A stretch of 64,000 bases of DNA from Candidatus Synechococcus calcipolaris G9 (GTDB taxonomy: Bacteria; Cyanobacteriota; Cyanobacteriia; Thermosynechococcales; Thermosynechococcaceae). Shown piece after piece: positions 38,565 through 45,507 of the stretch (position 1 is the stretch's first letter; each line of letters starts with the position of its first letter). The stretch covers positions 1,512,001 through 1,576,000 of the forward strand of contig NZ_JAKKUT010000002.1 in the NCBI RefSeq assembly GCF_029582805.1, given 5' to 3'. The notes beneath the pieces were generated by a model. The model was not told the origin of the DNA. It searched no databases and saw only the letters and a program-made list of their open reading frames with translations. The translations under genes and the position numbers were made by a program.

Positions 38565-41267
38565 CTAAACTCCTGTTGCTGGATTGAGGTCAGGGCTAGG
38601 GGCCGCTTCCGCTAAATAATAGCCATTTCCATTGGTGCCGTTGAGACTATTTCCTTGACGTTGGCGATGCTCTTCAATTAAGCGGATTGTCCGAGTCACG
38701 TCTGCGGGCAAAATAACAACTAAACTGCCCTCAGGAGCCTGACTCAGGGCATGATTAATGGCCTCCACTTCGTCATGAATAATGGTGCAATCCGGTTGAA
38801 CAGCATGGTGACTCACACCGCGCTGAATCCAATGGGCCGCATCCCCCCGGGGCCGGCCACGGGGATCATCATCTTCCTTGATTATGATCCAGTTAAAAAT
38901 TGAGGCAGACAGTTCCCCCAGTTGTTCAAGATCCTGATCGCGGCGATCGCCCGGGCCACCAACTACACCAATCCGCTGACCGGGCCATTTCTGGACAAAC
39001 TCACCCACGGCCGCATACCCGGCTGGATTATGGGCATAGTCTACCAAGGCACTGAAGGAACCCAGCTCTAACAAATTCATCCGACCGGGGGTTTGCTCCA
39101 CCGAGGTGCGAAAAGTGGTCAGGGCTGCTCGAATATGCTCGATAGCAATTCCCTGGGCAAAGGTCGCTAAACTGGCGGCCAATGCGTTGGCAATCATGAA
39201 ATTCGCCCGTCCCCCTAGCGTCACAGGCACATTCACTGCCTGCTCAATGCGCAGGGTCCAGTCCCCCTTCAAGATGGACAGATAGCCATTTTCGTAAACT
39301 GCGGCCAAACCACCCTGCTGAATATGCTGTTTAATCACCGGACTATTGGCATCCATGGAGAAATAGGCTACCTGGGCCTTCACCTGACGAGCCATGCCCG
39401 CCACGAGGGGATCATCGGCATTCAGCACCGCGTAGCCATTGGGCCAAGCAGACTCCACCACCACAGCTTTTAGATCCGCCAACTGCTCGATCGTGTCAAT
39501 ATCCCCCAAACCCAAGTGATCGGCCTGGACATTCAAGACCACCCCGACATCACAGTGATCAAAGCCTAGGCCAGAGCGGAGAATGCCCCCCCGGGCCGTC
39601 TCTAGCACCGCAATATCCACAGTGGGATCCCGGAGAATTAAATGGGCACTTTGGGGGCCAGTAGTATCCCCCTTCTCTACCAGATAGTCGCCAATGTAGA
39701 TGCCATCGGTGGTGGTATAGCCTACATTCTGGCCCGTTTGCTTACAGATATGGGCAACGAGGCGGGTAGTAGTAGTTTTGCCGTTGGTTCCGGTAATGGA
39801 AAAAATGGGAATGCGGGGAGAGACTCCCGGCGGGAAAAGCATATTGAGAACCGGTTCGGCCACATTACGGGCAATGCCCTTACTGGGGTTGGTATGCATC
39901 CGAAACCCTGGGGCCGCATTCACTTCGACAATGACACCCCCCACCTCTGGCATCGGTTTGGAAATATCGGGACAAACGACATCAATCCCGGCAATATCTA
40001 GACCAATGACCTGGGCTGCCCGCTGGCAAATCCAACTATTCTGGGGATGAATTTCATCGGTGCGATCCACGGCAATGCCGCCCGTACTTAAATTGGCCGT
40101 GGCCCGGAGATAGCAAATTTCGCCATCCTTGAGAACCGTATCCAAGCTAAATCCTTGGCGATCTAATAATTCCCAGGTATCGTGATTGACTTCAATTCGG
40201 GTTAAAACGTTGGTGTGACCATCGCCTCGCTGGGGATCGGTATTGGTTAGATCAATCAGTTCTTGAATCGTGGAGTGACCATCTCCCAGGACATGGGCCG
40301 GAACCCGCTCTGCCACCGCAATAATTTTGCCGTTAATCACTAAGACACGGTAATCACGACCAGGGTAAAATCGCTCGACAATCACAGATTTAGAAACCGT
40401 GCTGGCAATTTCGTAGGCTTCTTCGGCCCGATCCCAGGTATCAATGTCAATGGTGATGCCACGACCATGGTTGCCATCTAGGGGCTTTATCACAATGGGA
40501 TAGCCACCAATATCGGCGATCGCATTTTCCAGTTCATCTAGGTAGCGAATGGTTGTCCCCTTTGGAACGGGAATACCGGCATCGGCTAAGAGTTGTTTTG
40601 CCCCTTCCTTATCCCCCGCTAACTCAACGGCTAAAATTCCAGTGCGATCGCTGAGGGTTGCCTGCATCCGATGACTTTTTGAGCCATAGCCCAATTGAAT
40701 AATAGAACGACTACTCAGTTCGCACCAGGGAATATGACGGGCTTCGGCTTCTTTGACAATGGCTTCGGTGCTGGGGCCGAGGGAGGCTTCTGCTTTCAGA
40801 TCCCGTAAATCGCTAATGTCTTGGTCTAGCTCGTGCTGGGGGTAGGTTCCCGTATCAATAATGCTTTGACAGAGACGAACGGCGGCCCGACCAGCATAGC
40901 GACCGGCCTGATCCGTTTGGTATTCAAAGACCACCTGATAGATGCCAGGGGTGCCAGTTTCACGGGTACGCCCAAAACCCACGGGCATTCCCGCAAGTTC
41001 CTGAAGTTCTAGGGCGACATGCTCAATAATGTGGCCCAAATAGGTGCCTTCCCGCAAACGGGTCAAAAACCCTCCCTCATGGCCTAGGGAACAAAAGTGA
41101 TCATACAAACTGGGTAGGACACGAATTAAGCCATCCACAAAACCGGGAATCTGATTCGAGGGACTATCCGCGAGGGTCTCTAAATCGAGGCGCATCACAA
41201 TCAGCTTTTGCCGTCGGATGCTCCAATAGTTCGGCCCACGTAATGTTTGTAATTTGAGAATTTTCAT
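38565..41267 (-). CDS. cphA: Cyanophycin synthetase
   Basis: A 900-residue enzyme that builds cyanophycin (multi-L-arginyl-poly-L-aspartate) from Asp, Arg and ATP. An N-terminal domain and an ATP-grasp domain (residues about 215-480) are followed by a Mur-ligase-like domain with the P-loop GTNGKTTTTR starting at residue 493. The family-typical start MKILKLQTLRGPNYWS and the HNPAGYAAVGEFV stretch are present. The product is a nitrogen and carbon store in cytoplasmic granules. cphB lies 78 bp upstream on the same strand, the usual cphBA operon. I saw no clear NtcA site upstream. Confidence 0.97.
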   Translation of the reverse strand: MKILKLQTLRGPNYWSIRRQKLIVMRLDLETLADSPSNQIPGFVDGLIRVLPSLYDHFCSLGHEGGFLTRLREGTYLGHIIEHVALELQELAGMPVGFGRTRETGTPGIYQVVFEYQTDQAGRYAGRAAVRLCQSIIDTGTYPQHELDQDISDLRDLKAEASLGPSTEAIVKEAEARHIPWCELSSRSIIQLGYGSKSHRMQATLSDRTGILAVELAGDKEGAKQLLADAGIPVPKGTTIRYLDELENAIADIGGYPIVIKPLDGNHGRGITIDIDTWDRAEEAYEIASTVSKSVIVERFYPGRDYRVLVINGKIIAVAERVPAHVLGDGHSTIQELIDLTNTDPQRGDGHTNVLTRIEVNHDTWELLDRQGFSLDTVLKDGEICYLRATANLSTGGIAVDRTDEIHPQNSWICQRAAQVIGLDIAGIDVVCPDISKPMPEVGGVIVEVNAAPGFRMHTNPSKGIARNVAEPVLNMLFPPGVSPRIPIFSITGTNGKTTTTRLVAHICKQTGQNVGYTTTDGIYIGDYLVEKGDTTGPQSAHLILRDPTVDIAVLETARGGILRSGLGFDHCDVGVVLNVQADHLGLGDIDTIEQLADLKAVVVESAWPNGYAVLNADDPLVAGMARQVKAQVAYFSMDANSPVIKQHIQQGGLAAVYENGYLSILKGDWTLRIEQAVNVPVTLGGRANFMIANALAASLATFAQGIAIEHIRAALTTFRTSVEQTPGRMNLLELGSFSALVDYAHNPAGYAAVGEFVQKWPGQRIGVVGGPGDRRDQDLEQLGELSASIFNWIIIKEDDDPRGRPRGDAAHWIQRGVSHHAVQPDCTIIHDEVEAINHALSQAPEGSLVVILPADVTRTIRLIEEHRQRQGNSLNGTNGNGYYLAEAAPSPDLNPATGV

Positions 41268-41345: not shown

Positions 41346-42194
41346 CTAGACAGTTTTGTGGAGAGCGCGATGGGTCAGCAAATTATAGCAGTCTCCATCA
41401 CTCAGTATATGGACGCGCAGATTATAAATGCTTACGGGATCCGTTAAGTCCACATGGGGATAGCTGGTGTAGCTCACATCCCGAGGATCCACAATGGTGA
41501 CGGCACCCCGACCTAAAACCTTGAGATGGCCGTCGGCTTCAAAAAGGGCACAGGTGTCCTCATCAATGCCCACCCCTAGCTTCTCTGGGTAGGCAGAAAT
41601 GGCACTGATCAGCCGCGCTAGACGATTGCGGTTATGAAAATGCTGATCCACAATCACATCGGGCAAAAAGCCAAGACCCGTAGACATATCCACTAGGGAG
41701 CGGTTGGGGGGTTCGTTACTGCCACCACTGGCAATCATCCGCTCTCCCATGACGGCGGCCCCGGCACTGGTTCCTGCCAATACGGACTGTCCTTGCCAGA
41801 CTTGATGGCGCAGCTTTTCCAGGAGAGGGGTTTCGTCCAAAAGGGAGGAGAGTCGTAGCTGATCCCCACCGGACATAAACACGCCGCTGCACCGCTCTAA
41901 TCGCTCTAGTAGGTCTGGATTCTCCCCATGGCTGCGATCGCTCACAAGGAGAACTTCTACCGCCTTGACCCCAATTTCCATAAAAATATCGTGGTAAAGT
42001 CGCCCCATGGCATCCGGTTCCCGAGAAGCAGAGGGAATCACGCCAATGGTGGCATCCAGCCCCCCCGATCGCTGGCAAAATGTGGTTAAAATTTGCCGGC
42101 CATGCACTTTGTCTTCGGCTCCGCCAACGGCCATGACGACACTTTTAGCGGAGGAGGCATCAGGGGAAGTCAGAATGGGATTAAGTTGTAACAT
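41346..42194 (-). CDS. cphB: Cyanophycinase
   Basis: A 282-residue serine peptidase of family S51 that breaks cyanophycin into beta-Asp-Arg dipeptides. The catalytic Ser143 lies in GTSAGAAVMG. The family landmarks GVFMSGGDQLRL, VDQHFHNRNRLARLI and GVGIDEDTCALF are present. It precedes cphA, with 78 bp between stop and start. Cytosolic. Normal length. Confidence 0.95.
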   Translation of the reverse strand: MLQLNPILTSPDASSAKSVVMAVGGAEDKVHGRQILTTFCQRSGGLDATIGVIPSASREPDAMGRLYHDIFMEIGVKAVEVLLVSDRSHGENPDLLERLERCSGVFMSGGDQLRLSSLLDETPLLEKLRHQVWQGQSVLAGTSAGAAVMGERMIASGGSNEPPNRSLVDMSTGLGFLPDVIVDQHFHNRNRLARLISAISAYPEKLGVGIDEDTCALFEADGHLKVLGRGAVTIVDPRDVSYTSYPHVDLTDPVSIYNLRVHILSDGDCYNLLTHRALHKTV

Positions 42195-42368: not shown

Positions 42369-43277
42369 TTATTCTTGTTGTAGTATATTTATGTTGATCG
42401 TTGCATCCGGTAAATCCTCAACCTCTTGGGCCCAGCAAATAGAGTTTTTGCGTCGTTTTGCCTGGTAGAGTGCCGCATCTACGGCTCGATACAATTGTTG
42501 CGGAGATTGCTGACAGTCAATCCAGATGATGCCAATACTGACTCCTAGATGGATAGAATTGGCTGGGACGTTTCCCTCTACGTGCAGATTACAGATGAGT
42601 CTCTGGAGTTTTTGCGCTATTTTCTGGGCTTGGTCTTGGTCGCAACCAGAAATCAGCAGGGCAAATTCATCGCCACCGATGCGGCCCACATAGTCATCGG
42701 ATCGGGTATTACGATTGAGAAGTTCTGCCACCTGTTGCAATACCTGATCGCCCACGGGATGGCCATAGGTATCGTTGATTTGCTTAAAGTTATCCAAATC
42801 CATCAACATTAAGACGGCACGACAGGGGCGATCGCTTTGGGTCTGGATGACACAGCCTGCCCCAATGGCCTGATCTAGTCCGCGACGGTTGCCAATGCCG
42901 GTGAGGGCATCCGTAAACACCTGTTCTTGGGTTTGGGCCAAATCTTGGCGGGTGCGTAAAAAAATTGGAATGTAATAGCTTAATTGCCAAGCCGTCAGGA
43001 GACTAATTCCGGCAGTAAATATCTTGACGCTGCCCTCTAACCAGTAGTCACTATGCCAGATATTCCAGGCGGCAACACCATGGCCAATCCCACAACTGAG
43101 GATAAACCCAGCAAATAGGAATAGCGTTGGCCGCAGATCGGGGGTAACATAATGGCGATTGATTAATAGCAAAAGGGGAATTGAAAAATAGGCGATCGCC
43201 ACGAAGATATCCCCAGAAGCATGGAGCGTTGTTAAAGGAACGTCCCAAAAAAAGCAGCTTCCGTGGGGCATGGCCAT
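42369..43277 (-). CDS. Diguanylate cyclase with ethylene-receptor-type membrane sensor
   Basis: A 302-residue protein. Residues 1-105 contain three membrane helices resembling the plant ethylene receptor domain: SGDIFVAIAYFSIPLLLL (Asp23, Tyr30), FILSCGIGHGVAAWN with Cys62 and His66, the copper ligands, and GSVKIFTAGIS with Lys85. The spacing of these residues follows ETR1 within one residue. The C-terminal GGDEF domain has GGDEF at residues 201-205 and a product-inhibition site RSDD at 192-195, so it should synthesise c-di-GMP and be inhibited by it. The ligand could be ethylene or another small molecule bound to copper; this is inference. Gene stands alone, separated by 174 bp from cphB. 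Confidence 0.9.
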   Translation of the reverse strand: MAMPHGSCFFWDVPLTTLHASGDIFVAIAYFSIPLLLLINRHYVTPDLRPTLFLFAGFILSCGIGHGVAAWNIWHSDYWLEGSVKIFTAGISLLTAWQLSYYIPIFLRTRQDLAQTQEQVFTDALTGIGNRRGLDQAIGAGCVIQTQSDRPCRAVLMLMDLDNFKQINDTYGHPVGDQVLQQVAELLNRNTRSDDYVGRIGGDEFALLISGCDQDQAQKIAQKLQRLICNLHVEGNVPANSIHLGVSIGIIWIDCQQSPQQLYRAVDAALYQAKRRKNSICWAQEVEDLPDATININILQQE

Positions 43278-43428: not shown

Positions 43429-43866
43429 GTGTTTGGTCAACGGAAGGTTCAATCGGATCCACGGGTCAGCAAGATATTAGATTCCCTGAAAATTAAATAC
43501 GATGTGGATGATGACGGTGATTATCGGGCTGTCTTTGAACTAGAAGACGGGCGATCGCAATTAGCCTTTATTGATTCTCGTACCTCCCAATTAGGTGCCT
43601 TTGAAATTCGGGATGTGTGGTCCATTGGCTATAGCTCCGAAGAACCCCTAGACAAGGATTTGGCCAATTATCTATTACTCCAAAATGCCAATCTCAAAAT
43701 TGGGGCCTGGGAACTGCGCCATGTGTCCACCAATAAATTTTTAACGGTGTTTTGTACGAAGGTGGCCGCAGATTGCGAATCGGAAGCCCTCTACGCCAGT
43801 TTAGTTGTGGTTCTCAATGCGGCGGATGGCCTGGAAAAAAATCTGGATATTGGGGATTACTTCTAA
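43429..43866 (+). CDS. YbjN-domain protein
   Basis: A 145-residue protein starting at a GTG at 43429 with AGGGAGAAAAG just upstream as ribosome site. The YbjN family (also called sensory-transduction regulator domain) appears in LKIKYDVDDDGDYRAVFEL and DKDLANYLLLQNANLKIGAWEL, cited by DVDDDGDYRAV and NYLLLQNANLKIG. It is alpha/beta, soluble, and often linked to fimbriae or stress regulation; function is not known here. Confidence 0.85.
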   Translation: MFGQRKVQSDPRVSKILDSLKIKYDVDDDGDYRAVFELEDGRSQLAFIDSRTSQLGAFEIRDVWSIGYSSEEPLDKDLANYLLLQNANLKIGAWELRHVSTNKFLTVFCTKVAADCESEALYASLVVVLNAADGLEKNLDIGDYF

Positions 43867-44153: not shown

Positions 44154-44323
44154 ACCTTTATAAAACTAAGTCAGTAAACTAAGTCTAGTTTGATTTTGGT
44201 AATTCTGATCCGGCAAGCTAGGGATGCGCTTGATACAGGAACGCGCCGATTAAATTTAAATCGCCCCCCGCTTTGGGCAAAAGTCGGGCAGGGATGTTTA
44301 TAAAGATCGTCCATGGTATAAAA

Positions 44324-44338
44324 TGAGAATCGTTCTCA
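44324..44338. promoter_or_regulatory. Zur-box-like palindrome before znuA
   Basis: The 15-bp palindrome TGAGAATCGTTCTCA, with 6-bp arms and a 3-bp centre, matches the TGAnAATnnTTnTCA pattern of the cyanobacterial Zur operator. It overlaps the first ATG of the long open frame (44323), so translation must begin further downstream, and zinc-dependent repression of the importer is the simplest reading. Confidence 0.65.
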
Positions 44339-44343
44339 TATTC

Positions 44344-45507
44344 ATGGATAATGGATCAATGGCGGCCCTTCTTACTTCATTGAAAATCTCAATCCCCAAA
44401 TCCTTTATTGGACGTATTGGCTCAATGATGATTATGACGACCTTGGCGGTGGGCTTGGGTAGTTGCGGGGGAGAACCCGCGTCAGAGGAAGGAGAGTCTC
44501 CCGAAAGTATGGCAGCGGCCGATACCGGTATCACCATTGTCACCACCTTTCTGCCGATCACGGAATTTACGACGGCCGTTGTGGGCGATCGCGGCACGGT
44601 TACCCAACTTTTGCCCATGAATGTTGACCCCCACGATTTTCAAGCGAAACCAGGGGATGTGCAAACCCTGACCCAAGCCGATGTGCTGGTCAAAAATGGT
44701 TTGGAAATGGAAAATTTCCTAGAGGATTTAGTGGCCAATGCCGATAATTCCAATCTGACCGTGATTGATACCAGCGCGGGAATTGCCACCATTGAAAACG
44801 ATGACATTGACGGCGGTAGCCACGGCCATGATCATGGGCACGATCACAGTCATGATCACGGGCACAGCCACGATCATGGGGAAAGTGAGACAGCGGGCCA
44901 TCATCACCACCACGGTAAATATAATCCCCACATCTGGCTAGATCCAAAACGGGCGATCCAGCAGGTGGAAAATATTCGGGATGGCCTGATCGGCGTTGAT
45001 GAAGAAAATGCCGAGATTTATACCGCCAATGCCGCCGCCTACATTCAACAGCTTCAGGAATTGGATCGACAGATCACAGAGCAACTACGGCCCTTTAGGG
45101 GCAGAACATTTGTGGTATTCCATGATTTTGCTCCCTACTTTGCGGAAAGTTATGGTCTGAATGCGGAATTTTTGGTGGATGTACCTGAAGATAACCCTTC
45201 ACCTGCGGATGTCCAGCGGGTGATGAACACGGTTCAACAGAGCGATCTGAAAACCCTACTCACGGAACCGGGTGCGGGAGACTCCTTTGCAGCCCTAGCC
45301 CAGGACTTGGGGGTAAACATCAGTACCTTTGATCCCCTGGAAACGGGGCCGACGGATGCCATAGAGCCAGGGTATTACATCACCACGATGAACCAAAATG
45401 TGCAAAATATTGTCTCGGCCTTTGGCGGAACAACCCAGCAGTCCTATCAACCCCTCTGGTTTTCCCCAGCATCGGTGGCGGTGGTTTCCCAAGGACTCAG
45501 ATTTTAG
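44344..45507 (+). CDS. znuA: Zinc ABC transporter substrate-binding protein
   Basis: The ATG at 44344 gives 387 residues; the frame opens at 44323, inside the Zur-like box, and ATGs at 44359 and 44425 are alternatives. A lipoprotein-like signal ends in LAVGLGSCGGE. Three visible metal ligands are the His of VDPHDFQAKPGD, the His of PHIWLDP and the His of VFHDFAPYF, with an Asp or Glu as fourth; between the first two is a long flexible loop made almost only of His, Asp, Gly and Ser (about residues 165-200). The protein captures zinc in the periplasm for the ZnuCB permease encoded next. Confidence 0.92.
   Translation: MDNGSMAALLTSLKISIPKSFIGRIGSMMIMTTLAVGLGSCGGEPASEEGESPESMAAADTGITIVTTFLPITEFTTAVVGDRGTVTQLLPMNVDPHDFQAKPGDVQTLTQADVLVKNGLEMENFLEDLVANADNSNLTVIDTSAGIATIENDDIDGGSHGHDHGHDHSHDHGHSHDHGESETAGHHHHHGKYNPHIWLDPKRAIQQVENIRDGLIGVDEENAEIYTANAAAYIQQLQELDRQITEQLRPFRGRTFVVFHDFAPYFAESYGLNAEFLVDVPEDNPSPADVQRVMNTVQQSDLKTLLTEPGAGDSFAALAQDLGVNISTFDPLETGPTDAIEPGYYITTMNQNVQNIVSAFGGTTQQSYQPLWFSPASVAVVSQGLRF

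Follow-up and report, generated by a model that had tools for sequence, protein, structure and literature searches.

The closest described systems are the bacterial ethylene receptors SynEtr1 (slr1212) of Synechocystis and AzoEtr1. Both carry an ETR1-type sensor with seven binding residues (PMC11819568, in part), seven being the number of residues required for ethylene binding in the plant receptor ETR1 (PMC6682694, in part), and ethylene binding has been reported both for the binding domain of SynEtr1 (PMC6682694, in part) and for AzoEtr1, which is stated to have the seven residues (PMC11819568, in part). Both receptors signal through a histidine kinase that includes a PAS or GAF-type domain (PMC6682694 and PMC11819568, each in part). 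A published review describes the outputs of bacterial ethylene-receptor homologues as varied. Among the open questions named for ethylene receptors is how the signal passes from the membrane domain to the cytoplasmic portion (PMC13012798, in part), and a receptor whose sensor directly adjoins an enzyme with a readily measured product would allow a direct test of that passage.

Here we describe a candidate for such an arrangement in a window of 64,000 nucleotides from Candidatus Synechococcus calcipolaris G9 (contig NZ_JAKKUT010000002.1, positions 1,512,001 to 1,576,000). The encoded protein has the seven ETR1-type binding residues in common with SynEtr1 and AzoEtr1 and differs from them in that its sensor leads directly into a GGDEF domain, without GAF, PAS or kinase. 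The features of the locus are collected in Table 1.

Table 1. Features of the window, in window positions, with the evidence for each.
Feature	Position	Strand	Evidence or remark
ETR1_N-GGDEF fusion gene	42369..43277	minus	302 aa, ATG start; ORF, Pfam and group of 19
ETR1_N three-helix membrane sensor, residues 15-108	42954..43235	minus	Pfam PF25487, 83 bits; AlphaFold2 helices 13-39, 46-75, 79-121
Cys62-Gly-Ile-Gly-His66, putative Cu(I) ligands, counterparts of ETR1 C65/H69	43080..43094	minus	Cys and His invariant in 19/19 short fusions
Third helix passing unbroken into signalling helix, residues 79-121 (predicted)	42915..43043	minus	AlphaFold2 model; residues 3-140 gap-free in 19 members
GGDEF diguanylate cyclase domain, residues 121-278	42444..42917	minus	Pfam PF00990, 148.5 bits; VIA-align Z 25.3, 1.6 Å over 174 residues to 5xgd
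Inhibitory I-site RxxD, R192-S-D-D195	42693..42704	minus	Sequence; five residues ahead of G201-GDEF
Cyanophycinase gene cphB, next downstream	41346..42194	minus	NCBIfam TIGR02069, 342 bits; 174-base gap
Cyanophycin synthetase gene cphA	38565..41267	minus	NCBIfam TIGR02068, 1242 bits
ComFB-domain protein, 189 aa	11265..11834	minus	Pfam ComFB, 75 bits
ORF of 145 aa, divergent from the fusion gene	43429-43866	plus	No Pfam/NCBIfam match at E <= 0.001
Phd/YefM-type antitoxin-like ORF, 81 aa	43908-44153	minus	Near the ZnuA gene
ZnuA gene	44323-45507	plus	

A short fusion gene and its domains

A first-pass annotation had proposed an ethylene-receptor-like sensor fused to a diguanylate cyclase at positions 42369 to 43277. 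The interval is exactly one open reading frame on the minus strand, a strand that the annotation had not named, and frame 1 of the plus strand is riddled with stops over the same positions. The length of the protein is counted from the first ATG; the alignment of its relatives begins at the second methionine, residue 3. Pfam bears out the fusion, with residues 15-108 matching ETR1_N at 83.1 bits (E 1.7e-23, profile positions 2-96 of 97) against a curated cut-off of 27 bits, and residues 121-278 matching GGDEF with an E value of 1.9e-43. These are the sole Pfam domains in the protein at E <= 0.001, and no histidine kinase output, GAF or PAS domain was found at that threshold. A chance resemblance at a few residues is ruled out, both scores lying far above the cut-off. 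The genome assembly (3.3 Mb, completeness 99.97%) holds no other ETR1_N match at E <= 0.001. GGDEF is matched 17 times in it, two of these matches belonging to a single frame, and EAL 12 times, one match being a fragment that contains a stop.

The protein is neither unique nor newly fused, as the same short architecture occurs at 18 further named cyanobacterial loci. A scan of named genomes matched 50 stretches, 27 of which encode a relative; since its pattern was a two-sequence alignment, both sequences short fusions, the scan favours the short type, and the frequency of other types cannot be inferred from it. All 18 cyanobacterial relatives are short ETR1_N-GGDEF proteins of 283-320 aa, their hosts being Nodosilinea, Leptolyngbya, Phormidium tenue, Tildeniella, Shackletoniella, Kaiparowitsia, Spirulina, filamentous strains and metagenome-assembled genomes. 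GGDEF was not found in the nine relatives from other phyla, two of which are fragments.

In the window protein the G201-GDEF motif (201-205) is intact, the substrate residues D160, N168, D169 and D177 are present, and the inhibitory RxxD is intact, as the annotation had claimed. Across the 19 short fusions the GGDEF motif is present in 18 and reads GDDEF in the remaining one, and RxxD is present in 16 and missing in three. The GDDEF protein, from Nodosilinea sp. LEGE 07298 (L091), retains the I-site and is perhaps an inactive cyclase.

From the sensor through the linker into the GGDEF domain (residues 3-140), the alignment of the 19 short fusions has zero gaps, so that the spacing between sensor and cyclase is constant. 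An AlphaFold2 model built from these 19 rows (mean pLDDT 86.3, pTM 0.68) predicts three helices, the last of which is continuous up to the GGDEF domain. A fold search with the whole model, which barely probed the membrane part, listed GGDEF structures; beside 5xgd (Table 1) it matched the coiled coil plus GGDEF of DgcB (6ttr_B; Z 23.5, 2.4 Å over 193 residues), starting at residue 89. A sequence search of the PDB gave 55 sequences, with every match starting at residue 89 or later. EPR distances in ETR1 are reported to agree better with an earlier ab initio model than with that of AlphaFold, and completely with neither of the two (PMC13012798, in part); the packing of helices in such models should therefore not be over-read.

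The putative ethylene and copper site

The membrane part of the protein resembles the binding domain of ETR1. The ETR1 residues required for ethylene binding are D25, Y32, I35, P36, I62, C65 and H69, and the window protein has an equivalent of each in D23, Y30, I33, P34, I59, C62 and H66. K85 stands at the place of the ETR1 lysine that presumably forms the Asp-Lys salt bridge, K91. The annotation had located D23, Y30, C62, H66 and K85 correctly, with the Cys and His four residues apart, and all five are present in the window protein; across the group, however, the five-residue site is not fully conserved, the lysine being replaced in 11 of the 19 short fusions (by T in 9 and by S in 2) and kept in the other 8.

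When 170 sensor sequences are aligned, the seven ETR1-type residues are kept in all 19 short fusions, at overall identities of 43-50% to the window protein. For seven named columns to coincide by chance with seven of the 40 invariant ones, out of 108, the probability is 7e-4, with the caveat that such columns are not independent. Comparison was made with 145 other sensors, none with GGDEF, consisting of a cyanobacterial sample of 137 and 8 from named genomes of other phyla. Among these, the Cys is retained in 144 and the His in all 145, Asn replaces Asp in 10, a residue other than Pro occupies the Pro position in 11, and the lysine position holds K in 118 and R in 20. The putative metal and ligand core is thus intact across the short fusions, whereas the proposed salt-bridge lysine is not. 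That lysine has been proposed to couple ligand binding to signalling through its salt bridge with Asp (PMC13012798, in part).

The short fusions also have a signature of their own near the site: G65, where the other sensors have T in 86 of 145 and G in 50, S or T at position 7 for H, N72 for T, and E81 for S. The group-specific G65, N72 and E81, the lysine lost from more than half of the members, and the long branch that sets their sensors apart (see below) would all fit a receptor-cyclase of the same design that naturally responds not to ethylene but to Cu(I) as such, to the redox state or to a different small ligand bound at the metal site. We consider such a signal unlikely, though well short of negligible, in view of the invariance of all seven ethylene-binding residues, including the Asp whose change to Asn in a plant receptor lowers affinity about 100-fold (PMC13012798, in part).

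A further cysteine, C8 near the N terminus, is likewise invariant in 19/19 short fusions. In plant receptors two N-terminal cysteines join the dimer, and the single cysteine of cyanobacterial receptors may act likewise (PMC6682694, in part). The whole membrane part might also be mainly an anchor and dimeriser, with a cyclase that is constitutive or controlled by its I-site alone.

Some short membrane GGDEF proteins are known to behave in that way, and the window shares no partner gene with the related loci. Seven out of seven binding residues and a fixed 3-140 spacing in 19 diverged members nevertheless suggest selection for more than anchoring, and we judge the anchor reading to be improbable.

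Descent and genomic context

A tree of the sensors was built from 108 of the 170 rows. Every short fusion (19) and every long one (6) entered it, as did the 50 remaining sensors in which G precedes the His, 8 sensors from other phyla, and 25 drawn randomly from the rest. The tree has few columns for its number of rows and no bootstrap, and the program issued a warning about an Oleiphilus row and the short fusions meeting on long branches. In it, a branch with an SH-aLRT of 100 has the 19 short fusions on one side; they are separated from the other sensors by a long branch of 1.07. Their GGDEF domains also group together (SH-aLRT 98) in a tree that includes 14 other domains of the source genome, 6 from longer fusions and 25 others. 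Since the sensors group together and so do the cyclases, the two were probably passed on as a pair, and these sequence trees are best explained by one fusion, after which the halves were inherited together. Among 29 genomes of the source order, a match at the level of the group occurs only in the source genome (178 bits), with matches of <= 126 bits in 10 others and none in 18. This patchy presence could reflect transfer or repeated loss.

Across the phylum, 214 ETR1_N matches were found in 89 of 386 genomes. Outputs were classified for 144 sensor ORFs in 140 loci, with about 70 of the 214, the window protein included, outside this set. By sequence motif 106 have a kinase, 7 a GGDEF domain and 31 neither; a Pfam scan of 13 among the last found HATPase_c in 10 and no output domain in 3. 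Together the kinase motifs and HATPase_c matches uphold the annotation's remark that cyanobacterial ethylene receptors are mostly histidine kinases, among the sensors classified. Two ETR1_N proteins of about 200 aa, L185 and L248, have no output domain in Pfam and are possible stand-alone sensors.

One of the seven GGDEF cases, L247, duplicates the contig stretch of L095, a short fusion counted before. The other six (L110, L128, L151, L164, L208 and L226) are longer ETR1_N-PAS/GAF-GGDEF proteins, two of them with EAL, which rules out GGDEF output as exclusive to the short fusions. They resemble the window protein in having an ETR1_N sensor and a GGDEF output but differ in the PAS/GAF between the two, in sensors that fall on the kinase side of the tree, and in GGDEF domains that lie outside the short group. 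Given that position, GGDEF outputs probably arose more than once; starred branches of the GGDEF tree force at least two changes for the longer fusions, and sensor-tree support for their separateness is lower. The two with EAL, L128 and L164, are ETR1_N-PAS-GGDEF-EAL proteins and would place ethylene-receptor-like sensors on possible c-di-GMP phosphodiesterases.

The genes cphB and cphA come next on the same strand as the fusion gene, an order that suggests a regulator of nitrogen storage tied to cyanophycin turnover, and no terminator-like site was found in the gap before cphB. Such a role is very improbable, however, for no cphA or cphB relative was found within flanks of up to 6 kb at the 18 related loci (six shortened by contig ends), where the neighbours are different: ORFs of the gcvT and gcvH families, for example, lie beside the short fusion at 10 of the 18 (one example of each scanned). 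As a clue to function, an operon with the cyanophycin genes is thus unsupported by the related loci. We found nothing common to the window and the related loci that would point to a pathway. At eight of the 18 (L082, L084, L085, L087, L088, L089, L091 and L092), the first 1.5 kb of the locus holds a second GGDEF-family ORF, some 4.5 kb upstream of the fusion gene and with gcvT- and gcvH-family ORFs in between; the one scanned, in L087, is a GGDEF-EAL protein.

The annotation had also pointed to a ComFB-like receptor as a possible output. The ComFB domain is indeed present, but no tie to the ETR1_N-GGDEF gene, about 31 kb away, was found. For ComFB proteins, binding of c-di-AMP as well as of c-di-GMP has been reported (PMC12313861, in part), and the protein in the window may for that reason be a cyclic-dinucleotide receptor; that it is the output of the ETR1_N-GGDEF protein is only a possibility.

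Proposed mechanism and comparison with known systems

The reading that we favour, with a probability of about one half, is a minimal receptor of the ethylene type that would depend on Cu(I) and control a diguanylate cyclase. In this model, the three transmembrane helices would carry an ETR1-type Cu(I) site formed by Cys62 and His66 and aided by Asp23 and Tyr30, which would bind ethylene or a very similar small olefin. The receptor would be a dimer, possibly linked by Cys8. Binding of the ligand would shift the third helix, whose predicted continuation is a rigid signalling helix that leads to the GGDEF domain, and the shift would change how the two GGDEF domains face each other, raising or lowering c-di-GMP synthesis, with feedback via the RxxD site. 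Plant ETR1 becomes less active in response to ethylene; by analogy with that receptor and SynEtr1, ethylene would most likely lower output here as well. The sign of the effect is a guess from that analogy; a review names ethylene a negative regulator of slr1212 (PMC7700396, in part). The sequences show the domains, the residues, the constant spacing and the common descent of the two halves, whereas copper, ethylene, the dimer, the gating and its sign belong to the model. Against the model stand the long branch, the group-specific residues near the site, the lysine lost in 11 of 19 members, the lack of a shared partner gene, the RxxD missing in 3 of 19 and the one GDDEF.

We advance more tentatively, at somewhat less than even odds, the generalisation to a cyanobacterial subfamily of receptors of about 300 residues whose copper site of the ETR1 type would control the diguanylate cyclase directly, without phosphorelay, kinase, GAF or PAS. 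If true, a gas cue could be converted into a lifestyle signal within a single molecule, and a gaseous hydrocarbon would be added to the signals known to feed c-di-GMP. A census of c-di-GMP sensing published in 2022 does not contain the word “ethylene” in its main text (PMC8846402). Effects of ethylene on biofilm are known for Synechocystis (PMC6682694, in part), and the same arrangement would offer a route for such effects in cyanobacteria.

What seems new here, within a targeted search of the open-licence literature, is a coherent minimal subfamily with direct coupling of sensor and cyclase. No description of an ETR1_N-GGDEF fusion was found in that literature, an absence that is weak evidence because most subscription papers, including reviews on non-plant receptors that may list output domains, lay outside the search. 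To our knowledge, no smaller converter of ethylene to a second messenger is known than the ETR1_N-GGDEF protein of about 300 residues, if it is one. Sensor-gated synthesis of c-di-GMP has a precedent in the SesA-type light-gated diguanylate cyclases of cyanobacteria, in which the sensor is a light-sensing GAF domain, whereas that of the window protein is the ETR1_N membrane domain. An integral membrane sensor is likewise common to the MHYT proteins with GGDEF and EAL outputs (PMC8846402, in part), but MHYT is a different family with six predicted helices, and the window protein has no Pfam match to it at E <= 0.001.
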